Assembly: GCA_021209875.1 (NCBI GenBank)
Contig: JAGYVD010000007.1
Span: 1,736,001-1,800,000 of the forward strand
Direction of reading: 5' to 3'
Length of the DNA stretch: 64,000 bases
Origin: Rosellinia necatrix
Taxonomy: Eukaryota > Ascomycota > Sordariomycetes > Xylariales > Xylariaceae
The translations under genes were made by a program, and so were the position numbers. Below the pieces are notes generated by a model that saw only the letters and a program-made list of their open reading frames with translations, searched no databases and was not told the origin of the DNA. How positions within the stretch are numbered: position 1 is the first letter of the stretch; each line of letters starts with the position of its first letter. Below, in pieces: positions 32,328-41,551 of the stretch.

Positions 32328-33807
32328 CTTGAGTTTGCGCTGGATTTCTGGACAAGGAGCCTGAAGAGTTCAGGGGGTGTCATGAACTTCGGTGAAAAGG
32401 TACGTAACCACAGCATACACCGAGATAAGGTAACATCTAAGAGTCGCACGCGTGTCATGTCTCTTTTTATAACCCCAGGAATGGTTGCATCCGACCGCCG
32501 CGGACGTACATATGACAGTTGCATTCAAAGACTGGGGAGCCCGTGCGCAACGTTTCTGCCGCCGCGGCGGTCCAAGTTTATTGGAGCGTGGTCACGATGG
32601 GGGATGTACCAAGACCAATCGAATGTATCCTACTCAATGCTTTTACACACTTCCCTCAAGTTGTGATGTGGAGGTGGTGACAAAAGTATTAATCGTACAG
32701 CGTCATGTATTGCTAGCGCCCGGGTCCGAACCAGACGCTGCAGCTGGTTTGGTCAGTCATGTTTGCGAAATATGAAATAATATGTCTAATGCCACAATTC
32801 CCCACGCATACCTCTGATGATTTTCGTCTTGCTTAACCATGCCTGCACCAGTGTGGACTCTACACCATTGAGCTAAGCACCTGCCCGAAATCCTAACTCC
32901 TGTCCGTGGGCCAGCCCCCGTTATGCCACGATGAAACAAAATCGGCCTAAGGCGAAAAGAGACAGATTGACACATCTATAAACGTATAGTTAACCCGTAT
33001 ATTGATTATGATTGTCCCTCTTCGGACCCTCCACAGAGATAACTACGCCGTGGACTAGATATCACCTGATGTAAATGATCGGGGCAGCGTTCCTGTTTAG
33101 GCAATTACCCGAACCTGGTAAGACCAAGACGTACGATAGGACTGTATGTTGGTGATGAATTCCGACTTGGCTAAAACAACGGTAGTGAGGGCCAATACAA
33201 AAGTATAGGCTACCCTTTTCAGAGCACATACTGTGAACACTGCCTATCAATAAACCGACCAATTAGATATGGCTGTTATGGTCCTAAAAGGAACTCGCCT
33301 GGTGCCTAGTCAGCTAGCAGTAACTGCTTTATTGAGTGCGCCCGGTTAAATTGAACGGTCGAAAGTTGACAGCAAAAAAAAAAACCGTGCATCTTCGGAC
33401 ACTGCCACTGACTACCTCGTTAGAAAACCATATTTTAGCTATCAACCGTTTTAATCGCTAGATCGTTTAGAAACGCCATATCAGAAAGACAAGAGAGCTA
33501 CAAAACGTTTTGGTGGCAGACTGGCACTAGGTAAGTAATAAGTATGTTACAGGCTTGGCGGCCGCCGTATTCGTCCTCGCTACCGTTGTTTTTAGCTGGG
33601 TCGATGGATTCCGGGAATGCTGTTGCCTACACGGCGCCGTTCGGGTCCGATTCCTTCGGGCCAGATGTCAGTAAACCCCATAAATTGCCAAATAGTATAA
33701 GGCAACAAGAATGTGAGAATGCGAGTTCCGCCTCAGCTATAGAATCCCCAGCTCTGCCCTCTGTGAAGGGTCGCGAAAGAACACCAACCATCCGTCATTT
33801 CCCACCA
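32328..33807. other. intergenic between NmrA-like and GNAT genes
   Basis: About 1.5 kb between two divergent genes. A continuous open frame reaches back from the GNAT start to 33544 but has the composition of untranslated sequence. No other gene is visible. Confidence 0.55.
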
Positions 33808-34553
33808 ATGTCTCCCAACCCAACTTTTCACGTGCGCGGCGTCGGCGAGGTGCTCGAAGACGGCCAGTTCATACTCAACGCCTTCGACGCCTCGCTCCAC
33901 CAGCTCGCGGCCATCGGGAGTGGGGGCCAGTGGGGGTCCACGCCGTTTTCCGAGCGGCCGGACACGTGGAAGCGGATAAAGATCGAGCAAGCGAAGCAAT
34001 ACCAGTCGACCGGCGAGGGCGAGCCCGTCCGGATCTTCATCATCGAGGCCGAGATCCCGTCGGCGGCCGTGGACGGGCTGCCTCCTTCGGTGCACATCCG
34101 GACGGACGAGGCGGGGAGGCGGCTTTTGGCCGTCGGGTCTGTGATGCTGTCGCACGGCATGTACCCTCACTATCTGGGCCCTCATTTCGACAAGGAGCCG
34201 ATCAAGAAGGAGCTGGATGGGACCAGCGCCTACGTCTACCTCGAGGCTCTCATCACCGACTACCGCGCCGGGCCTTGGCGTAAAGGCGCTGGCGCCGCGT
34301 TGATAGAGCATGCCCGCCGCTACTGCCTAGAGAAGTCGCTACACATCCTCTATGGGGACTGCTACGCTGGTAACGATCGAAAACTTGTCAAGTAAGTGGA
34401 GAATAAAAATGCGAAACGTATCCCAGTTTGGTGACCGAGAAATCTAGATACTATGAGGGCCAGGGGTTCTACGTCGTGAGCGATTTCGAAGGCCCGGCCC
34501 CCGATGGATCCATATGGCGAGGGGCCTTTTTCCGTACGGATGTCTTGGCCTGA
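33808..34553 (+). CDS. GNAT-family N-acetyltransferase
   Basis: A 229-aa protein in two exons (33808-34391 and 34448-34553). The acetyl-CoA-binding motif A is WRKGAGAALIEHARRYC (R-x-x-G-x-G/A pattern), preceded by the strand YVYLEALITDYR, and followed by LHILYGDCYAGNDRKLVK and, after the intron, YYEGQGFYVV, the usual GNAT C-terminal motif. The acceptor substrate is unknown. I start at the MSPNPTFHVRG methionine because the upstream part of the frame is low-information sequence; 33604 and 33544 are in-frame alternatives. The gene is clearly more GC-rich than its flanks. Confidence 0.85.
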
Positions 34554-37500
34554 TTGGGCTCATTAGAGGTTGGGATGCCATCTTGGGGATGTTATTACGA
34601 CACTGTTGGAGTCCCGGAGTAATTAGAAGAACTGTTTCTCATCAGACATATGGCATCGAAAGCAAGCTCAATAACTAGAGAGATCAATTGGGTTCCCGTA
34701 CTTTTCATTTCGGACCCCAGAAAACCGGTTATAACGATATACAGGGCCAAATTCGTACTATACTCATCCCGAAGGGTAACCGGTGAAGATGCCCCAAAAA
34801 ATGCCATTTTGAGGGGAGCCCGATCCAGGGGCCGGGTACGAACCCACCGGTTCCGGGATGAAGTATCCGTGTATCACAGTCGTATCGGGCAGTATTGGGC
34901 TTGCTCTCGGGCGAAGTTACCGATAGCAGATATTACAAGGATAGCCAGTCATTCTGACCCCTCCATCACTACAGTGCGAAAAGCGACACATCAGAGAGTC
35001 CGACAGGGCCTCACCTCCTGGGGTTCTCGACGCCAACGAGGATCTAGCCATTTCAAATGACACTACAAGCCTTAGCCCAGACTCTCTCCATTATGAAGGA
35101 GGCAATGGCACCCAGAAGATATGCATATGCCAGTACTCAAACCCTGAAATCTAAGCTGATTTGTGTTTATTTCGCGAGACCCTCCACGTTCTCCCCAAAC
35201 AAGTCAAAGAGCAGGCTTCCGTGGTCTCTCTCTTGAAAATACCCCGGCCAAAGTAATGCGAAAAGCCCAGGTATGAGCTCAATGCGGGTTTGGCGTAGCG
35301 TCAGCTGTCAGCAGCAAGCGTCGATCAATCACTTCGCAGGGCTTCGCAACCCATGCAACCGCCCTCCCCCTATATATTATTTAGCGGCAGTTGAGTCCAG
35401 GGATGGGCTGTGACAGTCGATAACCATGTTAACCGTTATGCACAAAGTAAGTACTACACTATGTAATGCCGACATAAGAATCCCAGTCTTTGATTATGTA
35501 CCTCCATCAGCATCCCTCGGCCCCAATAGATTTTTCCCGAAAATCCTAGCTTTCGGCAGTTCTGATCCTGAATGCCGGACGCCAAGCCTGCTGGTCTTTA
35601 CAGGAAACAAACGGGCTTTTTTTTTAAGCACGAATATGACCAATAGATTGATAATATGGGTGGTATGATAGGCGAGTGTTGTGAATCTTCTACCCACGAA
35701 CTTAATCCTCCTATAGGAATGATTGGCCGGGGCATTGGGGCATCGTTGGGTCGTGTGGTAGCATCCTGGTGGCCCTAAAGCGCGCCAAGACAGCTTGTTT
35801 TAACTACATGTCAGTAGGTCATCGTTCACGTAGAAGACGAAAAGTATTGAATATATCGAGTGCCTGGGTGTGTGATTGAACATTGAAGGGAATGCTTGGC
35901 TTAAAGATCATTGTTCTCTTCCTGGCTTCAGCTGGCAGTTCATTACCTGACTCTCCGGTCATTAGCGTTATGATAAGAGCTATAACACGATACACATCTA
36001 TCAGGTTGTTCACACGTTGTGGCCATGTCAATTCTAGAAAGGTATGTTCGCAAAGTCGCGATATAAATTGTCAAATGAGGCAAAAACATAATAAGTCATT
36101 AGCGTCGGTAAACGGGGCCTTAGAATTCTAGATGATATCCCAGAGGCTTTGATTGATTGGTTAAGTTTAACGTTGATACGGGAAGATGGGAATTAATTAC
36201 TTCGTACAGCCTTCTAATTACTTCGAAGGTTGCAAGCCTTATCTTAACAGGGGGTTACGATATGCAGGATACCTATTTTCTAGGCAATACGATACCAGAT
36301 CGTCCTTTCGTGGGCTCAGCATTCCATCGCTTATTGTCACTGCAACCTAATCCTCCAAACTCATCCCAAGGGCTTCGCTATTAACAAGAGTTCGGCTGAA
36401 AAGTTATACCTCGAAACAAATTTGGGGTGCAAATCCCGCGGATGTGAAATCCAGTGAGTATTTACCTACCTAAGATGTCGAAGCATATAGTTATTCATAT
36501 AAATGTAAATAACTTTTCTAGAAGGTTCACGCACTTCGACTCAGTAGCTAAGGAAGTTCGCGAATTCATACTGTTATCTTCTATAGACTAGCAAACTTCC
36601 CTCCCCGACGAGTGGCGTTTATTAAGATCGAACATTGATATCTTCATGTCATGAACTGAGCGCAAAGAAAGTATATAGACTAGTCCTAGCTAGTAATACC
36701 CAGGACTCAGTAATGTAAACAGTTGATTATTGTAGACTTCGAGAGTCAAAGGGGCTCTAGATTTATATATAGATAGTCGATTTTAGCACTACAATCACCC
36801 TGAATGTCTAGTGGTTCCCGTAGTGTGAAAGACCACCTGACGCGCCATTTACGAACTTCATGGTGATTAGTTGTGTTGAGGTTATAATAAAATCAGTGGA
36901 TGCTAGCAACAGTAGGTTTCGTAATATCCAGGCTTGGAATTTATAATGAGATGTTTCTGAGATAGTAAAAGGTATTTAATAATGCATACGAGCGCCAGGG
37001 GTCCCAGAAACAGCAAGCCGTCCAAACTCATCAAAATCTGATCTCTCAGGGTCACTAGCCATCATAATAACACTTGTAAGCTATATACAAAATAGTCAGA
37101 GATGGCCACATTCTACAGTGCTCTATTATAATAAGTAGAGCCGCCTAGTAAACAAATAAACCAAGTCTGGTTAGTTATACGGACTGGCTTGGACTTAATA
37201 AAGTGGTTAAATGAGTCCGGATGTTTCTGGGGCTGAAGGCAGGGCCCGGGGACCATAGATATAACTGTTCACAATATAAGTACACTATACTCAGTTTTAC
37301 GCAAGTTTACAATATATATTCTCAACAGCCACTTCTCGGACAAATAATGTGCCCTACATGAAATCTGATCACATTATGGCCCATGAGGATCAAGTAATTC
37401 GGCCATAGCTATCTCTTTATTCATTCGTTACATTGTATTACTAGCGACAGGAAGGAAGCGCGGGTGTTAACCCCAGCGTCGTCATACCTATCCTCATCAG

Positions 37501-39303
37501 TGAACAGAAATCCTATCAAGGAAATATGTGATATGATACTAAGAAAAAGCATGGTGATATTTTATGCTGACACACATTTGCCATAGCCTACCACCACGCC
37601 AAGTAGCTATTTCTTTGTTGCAGTCTCATTTAATTCCAAAGCAACCACACTATCAGAGTCCCGTCTGTGATCGTATAAGTAGTTGCAAACAATCAAGTGT
37701 CCGACTCCATAACATTCTACTTTCGTCTCCAGCAACTTTTGTGTCTTATCATAGTTTGTAGTTCTGTCTCGTAATATTTACAATCATATCAAAATGCACA
37801 TCTGAGCCGATATCCTTTACTGTCATGAAACTAAACATGGTCTCTAAGCCTCCGCTAAGCACGGACTAAAGTACCATGTATATAAGCCGGAGTAGCTACC
37901 GGAAACTACCGTGCAAAGAGAACTTCTCTCATCGCGCAATAACATTCATTCTGGAACTACCTACAGTTGGAACTGTAACACAGACGAAATTGCTTGGCCT
38001 TGTTCATTGGAACCTCCTTACCGCGACGCTAGTAATGACCAACAAGAAACCAAATGTATTTAGTTATGTAACTCAGTATACTCCGGTAAGATTGCCGGAA
38101 CACTCTATACGCTATTAGTACGAGTCCTTGAATCTTCTTAGCCTCGCACTCGCCGTTGACAGCAACGAGTTTCAGATATCGGCAAGCCGCAACTCGGGAA
38201 TATTACGTACTCTACAACCAATACGGTGCTTTAATAAATACGAATAACTAGAGTCCGTTTTGATGCTTCTCTCTACAGCGTCCGGTGTTGAAACTATTAA
38301 TAAGCGACCCTCCTGTGAGTACACCGAATTCGGGCAGTAGCCGATCTAACCCAAAAGAAGCGTAGGCAGGACACGTTTAGTACCTGACTACGACCCGTAG
38401 ACGGACGATGCTGCTTCTGTGACCAGAAAAGAGCTAGAACAACTATGGCAGTTGAGATTTAGCAACCTGGCATTTCTGCGAGTTTAAGGGGCCAACGTTC
38501 TTGTCATCACCATACGGGTCCCCGGTGGTTGCACCGACCAAGCCGGGATCATCCTAAGCCGGCCCAAGTCCCACCGCATACTCGACTCTTGTTTCGAAGG
38601 CCAGGTTAGCTCTGTAATAAGGCCGTCACTTTCCTAGGCCGTGTTATAGAATAGGATGCGCGGCCGGCGATCCCGCTAACCCCCATCGGTGGGTCCCTGT
38701 GTCGGTATGTTCCGGTCGGCCATAATCGGCTCAATTGGCCTTCATATCGTCGCGTATGTAGGACTAGCCAGGCTATCCCGACCAACCCCCCAGTCCAACC
38801 CTAGCAGGAATATCAGGCGTCAACACTTAGGCCATATGGCTGGCCGGATTGATTGACGAAGCAATCGATCACACCATTATCCAAGCGGTACCAATTCCAC
38901 AGGCGTCGCCAAGGCGCACTAATCGAACCTATAGAGATGCCTGCTCGGATTTCTAAGCATCTGACTCGCTTACCAGTGGGATGATTCTCGTATACGTTAT
39001 CATATGCACCAGGGGAGGGGGGGCCAAATCTAGTGTACCGAGTAACGCCAAGTGATTATAGTATCACCGGGGATCTGGGTTACAGAATGAAATTCTTAGT
39101 CGCTTGCTGTGAGGTGCGCTCGGGATGTATCAATGGCTTCATACGAAGTGGTAGCGTATGTCGTTTGAGAATAGTGAACAATAATACCAAAAAGTGGATG
39201 TGCTCTTTGCATTGAACACACTCGGTCATCGCCGTTGCAGGTGGATTCAATGGAGTTCAATTCAGGGACTATTTGGCTATTTCTGTATGATCAGATTCGT
39301 CCT
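34554..39303. other. 4.7-kb gene-poor stretch before the RiPP locus
   Basis: No recognisable protein on either strand. From about 36.4 to 38.3 kb the sequence is AT-rich with many TA steps. It could be RIP-mutated repeat sequence, but I cannot align it to a known element. Confidence 0.5.
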
Positions 39304-39717
39304 CTACCATAGCCATATATCGTCGTTGTCTTTCTGGAGGTTGCCTCTCTTCTGGACCTGGTCCTTTTTCCAGAGCCAGATGTCATCGTTATCCTTCTGC
39401 AGTTGGCCCCTCTTCTCTAGGTCGGATTTCTTCCAAAGCCAGATGTCGTCGTTATCCTTCTCAAGCTTACCCTTCTTCCACAGCCAGATCTCATCGTTGT
39501 CCTTCTCATGCTCAGCCTTCTTCCATAGCCAAATATCATCGTTATCCTTCTCTAGTTGAGCCTTCTTCCATAGCCAGATGTCGTCATTGTCCTTCTCTAG
39601 CTCGCCCTTCTTCTCGAGTTCAGCTTTCTTCCATAGCCAGATGTCATCGTTGTCCTTCTGTAGTTGACCCTTCTTCCATAGCCAGATATCATCATTATCT
39701 TTCTGTAGGTCGGAGCG
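39304..39717 (-). repeat. in-frame 45-bp coding repeat array (with 18-bp inserts)
   Basis: The DNA behind the peptide repeats: a 45-bp period (15 codons), lengthened to 63 bp at three places by an 18-bp half-unit. Copies differ mostly at third codon positions. The array runs to the stop codon. Confidence 0.9.
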
Positions 39718-39851
39718 CTCTAGGACCAGTTAGGCATCAAGAAGTGTATATGAACGATTGGACATGGCAACTCACTCCCTTCTGTAACTGGGAGGGCAGA
39801 GGCGCAGGCAAACACCAGAGGGGCAACAATAGCAAGTTGCTTGAACTGCAT
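39304..39851 (-). CDS. candidate RiPP precursor: secreted Kex2-processed repeat peptide
   Basis: A 163-aa protein in two exons (39851-39776, 39719-39304) split by a 56-bp intron (GTGAGT donor, CTAACTGG branch, CCTAG acceptor). Residues 1-19 are a signal peptide (MQFKQLAIVAPLVFACASA), followed by LPVTEG and, exactly at the splice junction, a KR Kex2 site. Then come eight units of about 15 residues: a four-residue linker such as GQLQ, AQLE or GELE, a Lys, the core DNDDIWLW (DNDEIWLW in unit 5), then KK. Three extra half-units (AELEKK, SDLEKR, DQVQKR) lie before units 3, 7 and 8. The last unit ends Trp-stop. A signal peptide plus identical cores between dibasic sites is the architecture of dikaritin precursors such as UstA and PhomA, and a UstYa-type gene lies next door. 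The core has two Trp and no Tyr. Alternative: a Kex2-processed signalling or structural peptide that is never cyclised. Confidence 0.88.
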
Positions 39852-40502
39852 GGCGGCGATTGATCAAATGTATATCTCAAGATAAAATGATAAAGGGATT
39901 CTCAACTCGGGGTTTCGGTAGATGAGGGCGAGGAAGCCAGCTGGGAATCCTATTTGGGGAGCAACGCCCTTTAAGAAACCTATGTCCTGTTGGCTCCCCG
40001 CCCTCGGAAACGGGAGAGGCGAGTGGCATGCGGGATCTCCATGATGTAATCAAAGACCGACTAACTAGTCTGTGAGTTTTGTGGTGTAAGAATTGTTGAT
40101 AGATCGTGAGCTTCCCCGCACTCCGTATCCAATACGGTGATGCAGACGCCATCCTCACAGTCGGTGAGGAATCCTACCCGTTATCAGTGGGTAATCGCCT
40201 CACCCCGACATGTTTCTTTAGGAAGGTGAATCATCTAGTGCTGACCTAAACTCGTCCATTCGCCCTCGCTAGGTCGACGGAGGTCTCTGAATGCTGATGC
40301 CATATAGCCATGCACGTCATCGTATGGATCGCCGTCATTCCACGACCCCGTCATCCCCCAACCCCCGCCTCCCCGCCTCCGGCGGAGCCATGCCGATAAT
40401 CCTTTTATTATCTAGTAAAACCCGGGCGTGGTCCACCGTTCGCTTCTGCGTTGTTTCCAGTCGTCAAACTCGGCATGTTGCACTAGATTCACAACAGTGA
40501 AA
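39852..40502. promoter_or_regulatory. divergent promoter region between precursor and UstYa-like gene
   Basis: 651 bp separate the two start codons, which face away from each other. No other gene lies between them, so co-regulation from one shared region is likely. A C-rich patch at about 40341-40389 lies on the UstYa side. I do not recognise a specific operator. Confidence 0.6.
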
Positions 40503-41551
40503 ATGGGTGTTATTCAGAAGGAAGCAAAGCCAGCCTACGCGCCCATTCCGGACGACCAGTCGGCAACCGAGTCGGACGATCTCTTATACGAGGGCTTCAA
40601 GTCGTCGTATACGAAGAAGTCTCGCTGGTCGCGATGGCTCGTATTGGGTGGTGTCGTGGTGTTTGTGGCATACTCGGCTGCCCTCGTCTCAATTCCCTAT
40701 TTTTGGTTCAAGAAGGAAAGGCTGCATGGCGCCAATGTTATTGACAGTGAGAACCTCGTTGTTACCCCAGCCGGAGCCCCTAATACTAACTCCCCTATAG
40801 CCCCGATAAGAAAACACATCAAGTATGAGCCGACATACTTCGGCCACACGGAAACATCCAAGGACTATAAACTCGTCGGGAAGCCAAGCGATGAGCTAGA
40901 CGCCAATTGGAGTTCCATCATGCAGTACTTTTATGCCGAAGTTCCCAAGGAGTTCATTCAGTCCCTTGATAGGGAAAGGGACAGCATCCGGTTGCCTAAC
41001 GGCAATTACCTGGCGAACTACGCTTTCATTCACCAGCTACACTGCCTGGTAAGTGTATCCTGCTCATGACTAGACCATCTATGATCTAACCCATCCGAAA
41101 GAAACGCCTTCATCAATCCTACTTCCCCGAGCATTACTGGCCCGACATGACAGAAGAAGAAAAGGAGTTGCAGCTCGAACACAGCTGTAAGTCTTCCCCC
41201 CGCATAGCATATATCCACCTATTTTTTATTCTACTAACCCGGTGTATAGTACATTGTCTGCAAATGCTGGTGGAAGTTGTTATGTGCAAAGCCGACGAAA
41301 CACCTCTCACCATGATCTGGTTCGATGAGAGTATCTTGCCCGGTGGTAACCGGACCATTCCCCATGAGTGCAAGAACTGGGACACGTTGATTGAGGGGAT
41401 GGAAGAGGTGAAGATAGACCCCTTTACTCCAGGACTCCTAGTTCACCCTAAGTACGGCCCTGTGGTACCCGACGGCAGAAACACAACACTGGACAACAGG
41501 ATAGGATACGTTAAAAATGCCACACCTCTAGACCGCACGAAGTGGCCGTGA
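40503..41551 (+). CDS. UstYa-family (DUF3328) protein, candidate RiPP-cyclising oxidase
   Basis: A 310-aa protein in three exons (40503-41048, 41102-41186, 41250-41551). Layout: a cytosolic N-terminus of about 44 residues, one membrane helix (WLVLGGVVVFVAYSAALVSI, about 45-64), then a large lumenal domain. Two HxxHC motifs define the family: HQLHC at the end of exon 1 and HSLHC, formed only when exon 2 joins exon 3. Between them is LHQSYFPEHYWPDM. Several Asn-x-Ser/Thr sites fit a secretory location. In ustiloxin, asperipin and cyclochlorotine pathways such proteins catalyse oxidative cyclisation or hydroxylation of peptides. Here it is divergent from a repeat precursor with Trp-containing cores, the likely substrate. 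That pairing, rather than any single motif, drives the functional guess. Confidence 0.92.

Follow-up and report, generated by a model that had tools for sequence, protein, structure and literature searches.

Tyrosine is the residue used by ustiloxin, phomopsin, asperipin-2a and the epichloecyclins. The best-known dikaritins are described as cross-linked via tyrosine (PMC7329392; PMC11253845), and across the 1461 fungal strains of one survey 65.6% of the repeats near DUF3328 genes are reported to contain this residue, with no enrichment of W-containing repeats near such genes (20.5% near versus 24.5% away; PMC7329392). The same survey reports that DUF3328 genes are most frequent directly beside repeat-precursor genes, and places 1758 of 7878 Kex2-processed repeat proteins (KEPs) near DUF3328 with an architecture as in the gene described below (PMC7329392). 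The asperipin-2a locus (aprA/aprY/aprT/aprR) is reported to pair a repeat precursor with one DUF3328 gene (PMC6514808; PMC7329392), and ustiloxin and phomopsin are reported to use two and five DUF3328 proteins, respectively, together with a tyrosinase (PMC7329392). Victorin and the epichloecyclins also have repeat precursors, said to be cyclised from an aromatic to an aliphatic side chain (C-terminal Phe to Leu in victorin, N-terminal Ile to Tyr in epichloecyclin; PMC9233826), and in the UstYa-type RiPPs whose rings have been described the bond runs from an aromatic side chain to a carbon of a second side chain (PMC9233826; PMC12186524). In plants, burpitides of the stephanotic-acid/moroidin type are made by copper enzymes with four planar histidines that have been compared with DUF3328 (PMC12435403); their Trp is bonded to the C-beta of an aliphatic residue three positions upstream, the stephanotic-acid type linking the C-beta of Leu2 to Trp5 (i, i+3; PMC11253845). 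A survey of the Hypoxylaceae and Xylaria hypoxylon reports an ustiloxin-like RiPP cluster in some species and notes that its RiPP search was restricted by dependence on similarity to precursors already known (PMC8403587).

Here we describe a repeat precursor gene and its neighbours in a 64,000-nucleotide stretch of Rosellinia necatrix DNA (the window). As judged from sequence, the layout is one already known, and what is new is a tyrosine-free core with Trp as its only aromatic residue. The locus probably encodes a UstYa-type RiPP whose core, Trp-only and so far undescribed, is oxidatively cross-linked.

The precursor gene and its neighbourhood

The precursor gene runs on the minus strand from 39851 to 39304 as two exons giving a 163-aa product on spliced translation (Table 1). 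The coordinates, 56-bp intron, signal peptide and eight core copies had all been given in the original prediction, made from the letters of the DNA, and the sequence bears out all of them, the first of these repeats lying behind a signal-peptide-like start. Splicing to a second acceptor, 21 nt further on, would leave the frame open too; the 56-nt intron is preferred because the alternative breaks core 1 and removes the KR after the leader. As in KEPs, the product begins with a putative ER signal peptide, judged by hydropathy (hydrophobic core LAIVAPLVFA on the Kyte-Doolittle scale, ASA-LP-type end) and by a signal-peptide-like start in 10/10 homologues, which in P0001 lies inside a longer gene model. 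The repeats and Kex2 sites of KEPs are likewise present, with eight cores, KK after seven of them and KR in the leader and linkers. Seven cores read DNDDIWLW and one DNDEIWLW, and a degenerate DNA pattern for the core matches eight times in the window, always within the precursor, whereas 100 dinucleotide shuffles gave 0.00 matches on average. That each copy is bounded by dibasic KK or KR, as had been claimed, holds downstream of cores 1-7, which are followed by KK, but not for core 8, which ends at the stop codon, nor on the upstream side, where a single K (after E or Q) precedes all eight cores and the nearest dibasic site lies further back. Cutting in silico at the dibasic sites yields eight core peptides of 13 residues each without KK, three 6-residue spacers and the leader; the computed monoisotopic M is 1075.4611 for DNDDIWLW and 1629.7787 for the 13-mer GQLQKDNDDIWLW. 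No tyrosine occurs after residue 25 of the precursor.

Table 1. Positions of genes, exons, cores and other features within the window
Feature	Position	Strand	Basis or remark
NmrA-type gene	about 31-32.4 kb	-	NmrA plus weaker NAD-binding match, about 32.1 kb
GNAT-like ORF	33535-34392	+	E 0.11, below cut-off
Precursor exon 2	39304..39719	-	eight DND(D/E)IWLW cores, KK after seven, stop codon after last
Core 8 DNDDIWLW	39307..39330	-	core pattern match; stop codon directly after
Core 7 DNDDIWLW	39370..39393	-	core pattern match
Core 6 DNDDIWLW	39433..39456	-	core pattern match
Core 5 DNDEIWLW	39478..39501	-	core pattern match
Core 4 DNDDIWLW	39523..39546	-	core pattern match
Core 3 DNDDIWLW	39568..39591	-	core pattern match
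Core 2 DNDDIWLW	39631..39654	-	core pattern match
Core 1 DNDDIWLW	39676..39699	-	core pattern match
Precursor intron, 56 nt	39720..39775	-	GTGAGT donor, CTAAC branch-like site, TAG acceptor; predicted from sequence
Precursor exon 1	39776..39851	-	start codon and signal-peptide-like stretch MQFKQLAIVAPLVFACASALPV...; spliced translation
Intergenic stretch, 651 bp	39852..40502	.	between both start codons
UstYa/DUF3328 gene, 310 aa	40503..41551	+	exons 40503-41048, 41102-41186, 41250-41551; PF11807
GFA	about 45.8 kb		Pfam frame scan
DUF1365	about 49 kb		Pfam frame scan
MBF1 and HTH	about 50.5-51.3 kb		Pfam frame scan

Pairwise comparison of the eight cores gives 0, 0 and 93 base differences at codon positions 1, 2 and 3, with Nei-Gojobori proportions of pS 0.945 and pN 0.012; for the two residues at -4 and -3 of the cores, pS is 0.67 and pN 0.33. 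Differences solely at third codon positions indicate strong protein-level selection on the core peptide, and the core copies are old and kept fixed as peptide. A recent tandem duplication was considered as the source of the repeats and ruled out, synonymous sites being near saturation at this pS.

Absent from the original prediction is a divergent UstYa/DUF3328 gene that starts 651 bp from the precursor start codon on the plus strand, the stretch between them likely being a shared divergent promoter. The PF11807 UstYa model matched two separate parts of the gene, at 60.2 and 46.6 bits for a cut-off of 25. From 15 open acceptor combinations, our gene model takes one that preserves both metal motifs and can be aligned with homologues. 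The product has one transmembrane-like stretch (residues 46-64, hydropathy) and the motifs HQLHC (177-181) and HSLHC (209-213), that is, the N-terminal hydrophobic helix-like stretch and HxxHC(x)nHxxHC pair that characterize the UstYa family, and the six His/Cys of both motifs are invariant in 28 aligned sequences (that of the window and 27 of 37 UstYa matches). In a low-confidence model of the Xylaria scruposa homologue (P0008; mean pLDDT 55.9) the motifs fall on helices 154-169 and 181-204, and a sequence search for related solved structures gave 0 matches at E 0.01. For the DUF3328 enzyme CctR, two copper ions per monomer are reported at the HxxHC motifs, alanine mutants of which are inactive, and the catalytic part is proposed to lie in the organelle lumen (PMC12435403).

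Pfam frame scans (X at stops) covered 30.0-39.3 kb and 41.4-51.4 kb on both strands, and 39.3-41.4 kb solely via the two UstYa open frames; short split exons could escape such scans. The scans of 30.0-39.3 and 41.4-51.4 kb found no tyrosinase, S41 peptidase, methyltransferase, P450 or MFS/transporter domain, and therefore within these stretches none of the tyrosinase, S41 peptidase and methyltransferase of an ustiloxin/phomopsin-type cluster. The remaining pathway genes are thus absent, located elsewhere or dispensable, and the locus looks minimal. By analogy, the NmrA-type gene and GNAT-like ORF about 5-8 kb from the precursor could be accessory genes, since an isoflavone-reductase gene is reported for asperipin-2a (PMC6514808) and an acetyltransferase for a lichen RiPP clan (PMC12048977). 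Between the GNAT-like ORF and the precursor, positions 36001-38000 are A+T-rich (GC 0.405 versus 0.509 overall) and are possibly decayed repeat DNA.

Relatives of the precursor and linkage to UstYa

A proteome search for the core and precursor, as the original prediction had suggested, found at least ten further precursors among fungal proteins. Two protein searches returned 4 relatives and then 10 including those 4; the second scored the best 8000 candidates, so that ten is a minimum. The relatives are mostly from the Xylariomycetidae with one from Thyridium, which belongs to another order and subclass of the Sordariomycetes than Xylaria and Biscogniauxia; among the ten matches listed are Xylariaceae sp. 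FL1272 and FL0255, Xylariomycetidae sp. FL0641, X. scruposa, three Biscogniauxia, Camillea tinctor and Thyridium curvatum. Together with that of the window, the 11 proteins hold 47 cores, three to eight per protein, separated by variable linkers. These cores were gathered with a pattern fixing D1, D3, L7 and W8, whose invariance is thus by construction. At the free positions, W occupies position 6 in 47/47 cores, position 5 is I in 31 and V in 16, position 2 is N (22), S (20) or A (5), and position 4 is D (32), A (10), E (4) or N (1). All 47 therefore carry [I/V]WLW and none a tyrosine, and 11/11 precursor proteins end exactly in WLW. Lysine precedes 41 of the 47 cores and is thus not essential. 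Outside the cores, Trp is confined to three proteins: P0001 has one, in the N-terminal extension of the model, P0004 has four, in a different repeat, and P0044 has one. This indicates that no variant core with W was overlooked elsewhere. A homologue in which the repeats are broken up and the signal peptide is lacking had been named beforehand as speaking against a RiPP precursor; such homologues were looked for and not seen among the ten. A search of the R. necatrix genome for further copies gave, besides the gene's own two exons, two weak matches (E 0.009, 29%; E 0.34, 31%), the former falling in a Ser/Arg/Asp-rich frame (L030).

A second type of unit occurs in two of the relatives, GDEWKDEGGPSVIWPAKR twice in P0004 (FL0641) and GNTMFWAGKKR once in P0044 (T. 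curvatum), and one precursor of this type may yield two products.

Linkage in the relatives was judged from equal-sized contigs, strain prefix and locus tags. Among the matches listed, precursor and same-strain UstYa lie on contigs of equal length in five of the ten relatives, namely FL1272 (contig 593282; tags 474023/474021), FL0255 (contig 265514), FL0641 (contig 142785), X. scruposa (contig 894332; tags 445704/445705) and B. mediterranea (contig 115179; tags 645333/645331), and in three of the pairs the locus tags differ by 1 or 2. Random co-location would have a chance of 0.3 to 2% each, assuming a 45 Mb genome. By alignment, the UstYa proteins of these five pairs share 68-89% identity with that of the window (63-83% by local BLAST). 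Of the 13 other UstYa regions of its own genome, 12 gave partial matches of 21-39%, together with two short ones (13 and 16 residues, 54-56%), and the thirteenth gave none; the linked proteins thus look like one orthologous group. No UstYa was found on an equal-sized contig for the other five relatives, nor a precursor for 32 of the 37 UstYa matches (one from a Dothideomycete), again among the matches listed, and these unpaired cases say little either way because the database is clustered at 90% identity, the number of candidates scored was capped and short precursors are often unannotated. The linkage in five of ten relatives, the divergent UstYa gene and the conserved precursor family support the original prediction of a Kex2-type repeat precursor of ustiloxin layout.

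Repeat precursors were found at no fewer than 4 of the 14 UstYa regions examined in the genome, the window included, a lower bound because the screen took single open frames. That at L017:6375-6806 (+; genome C1 about 4186374-4186805) has seven copies of PWPLY(V/A)AKD, six of them followed by (A/S)KR, with a divergent UstYa match nearby (about L017:4595-5161, minus) and an upstream frame with a signal-peptide-like start. Located between two UstYa matches, L022:4473-5021 (+; genome C8 about 4729972-4730520) encodes 11 DVADAF units behind a signal-peptide-like start; KR or RR comes after ten of them and the last ends at the stop codon, on the same plan as the window gene with an acidic stretch and an aromatic C-end. 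Five DAI(T/V)FRYP units with KR/RR sites and a divergent UstYa match nearby were found at L026:2406-2987 (-; genome C2 about 401405-401986).

Class membership and putative modification

Filing of the locus among the dikaritins, whose precursor layout it shares, is justified in part: it stands if the enzyme defines the class (two HxxHC motifs in a UstYa/DUF3328 protein of the cluster; PMC12048977), but not if the class is defined by a Tyr ether cross-link (PMC11253845), which cannot form on a core that lacks Tyr in all 47 copies. In content the locus is closest to asperipin-2a, with one DUF3328 gene each (PMC6514808). However, the asperipin-2a core is tyrosine-rich with ether rings, whereas the window core has two tryptophans and no tyrosine, and of AprT and AprR the NmrA-type gene about 7 kb off is a putative counterpart at most. 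Repeated cores, acidic residues by the core and a UstYa family enzyme are shared with ustiloxin and phomopsin, and the 13-residue pieces predicted here resemble the 13-14 residues reported for the dibasic cuts of ustiloxin (PMC6514808); in contrast, one UstYa gene and no tyrosinase were found in the scanned stretches here, and the Tyr-to-Ile ether of those compounds is impossible with this core. The victorin ring uses the C-terminal aromatic residue, as does the ring guessed below, but victorin and the epichloecyclins use Phe or Tyr and not Trp. Burpitide cyclases are plant BURP-domain enzymes, unlike UstYa/DUF3328, and the likeness to their products lies in a ring that we guess from spacing. 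The original prediction knew of no described product with this core, in agreement with which five core strings were not found in the open literature full texts searched; the supplementary tables of PMC7329392 may list some as raw predictions. Topical literature on such RiPPs gave no report of a WLW-core precursor family that we noticed.

From motifs and gene content, we consider it highly likely that a UstYa-modified peptide is produced by this locus and released by Kex2. The precursor would enter the ER by its signal peptide, and the membrane-anchored UstYa, with a di-copper site in the lumen as family chemistry suggests, would oxidise each core. Kex2 would cleave after KK/KR, the order of processing steps being presumptive, and a carboxypeptidase would trim the basic residues so that all peptides end in ...WLW, as does the uncut last copy, while the N-terminal tail (e.g. 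GQLQK) would be trimmed or retained. The acidic D-x-D-x is probably a recognition or solubility part, and [I/V]-W-L-W would be the part that is modified. Trp6 and Trp8 are the only aromatics of the 47 cores and Ile/Val5 the only beta-branched residue, and the most likely change would be an oxidative ring between the indole of Trp6 or Trp8 and the side chain of an aliphatic residue. If a UstYa-modified peptide is indeed released, a cross-link involving Trp is somewhat more likely than not; modification and Trp cross-link taken jointly have slightly better than an even chance. As a tentative first guess, the ring could join I/V5 to W8 (i to i+3), because this spacing equals that of Leu2-Trp5 in stephanotic-acid-type peptides. 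Against a Trp cross-link stand the lack of tyrosine in the cores, a conserved tyrosine being called essential in one survey (PMC6339444), and the lack of enrichment of W-containing repeats near DUF3328 genes noted above.

The UstYa could instead hydroxylate, dehydrogenate or halogenate Ile/Val, Leu or Trp without forming a ring, and a linear oxidised peptide of this kind is a serious possibility, though not the favoured one. CctR is reported to hydroxylate a C-beta and other DUF3328 enzymes to hydroxylate, halogenate or isomerise (PMC12435403), and DUF3328 is also described from polyketide and nonribosomal peptide clusters (PMC12048977), so that a DUF3328 gene by itself implies neither ring nor RiPP; the single UstYa beside the precursor and the invariably beta-branched position 5 (I 31, V 16), a good C-H target, also fit a linear product. 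On the other hand, asperipin-2a is reported to be macrocyclised with a single UstY (PMC6514808), and the presence of Trp in 47/47 cores at position 6, which was free, and at position 8, which was forced by the pattern, suggests that the aromatic side chains take part.

Three further explanations dispense with the enzyme, with release of the peptides or with the gene itself. That the product is a linear Kex2-cut signalling or pheromone-like peptide next to an unrelated UstYa is unlikely. Ascomycete alpha-pheromone repeats are of the W-C...G...C-W type, and neither this type nor MF_alpha repeats were found in the precursor, whose core lacks Cys, Gly and Pro; co-location with an orthologous UstYa in 5/10 relatives (on equal-sized contigs) also argues against chance proximity. 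No separate pheromone gene was identified in the genome, which would favour such a role for the precursor, but the two tests are weak: PF04648 (alpha-factor family), which is of yeast type, had no match in the genome, precursor included, and matched below the cut-off in 2/14 control genomes, and an ascomycete pheromone pattern gave 4 genome matches versus 7 control matches, i.e. control level. The survey of repeat precursors cuts both ways, reporting 6120 of 7878 as not near DUF3328 genes and 17/76 relatives of putative basidiomycete pheromones as beside DUF3328, whereas precursors annotated as alpha-factor or fungal pheromone were, with three exceptions, not beside such genes (PMC7329392). 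A secreted structural or effector-type protein whose repeats act jointly would account for the long charged linkers, and fungal repeat precursors with no assigned role are reported to be common (PMC7329392); we regard it as very improbable, given that the dibasic sites after most cores, the WLW terminus in 11/11 proteins, the range of three to eight cores and the variable linkers suggest that the unit is the peptide. Finally, a repetitive open frame arising by chance or artefact can be practically dismissed in view of ten homologous proteins, core differences solely at third codon positions and the 0.00 matches in shuffled sequence.

Implications for UstYa-type RiPPs

The preferred reading of a UstYa-modified peptide with a Trp cross-link leads to a wider proposal that we hold only tentatively, namely a tyrosine-free branch of UstYa RiPPs in the Xylariales and Thyridiales, encoded by a two-gene module, that joins Trp to Ile/Val (or Trp to Trp) and would be a fungal counterpart of the stephanotic acid Trp-to-aliphatic cross-link. 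If Trp is cross-linked, the copper chemistry of DUF3328 would extend beyond Tyr and Phe, widening the definition of the RiPP class. The locus is a convenient test case for substrate and bond choice by copper enzymes because it combines a short precursor, one enzyme and a fixed eight-residue core. For genome mining, the motif D-x-D-x-[IV]-W-L-W, sought at the C-terminal end of short secreted proteins, could catch loci that tyrosine-based searches may miss. From their sequence features, the precursor and UstYa genes together have the look of a compact, conserved unit for making a peptide not yet described.
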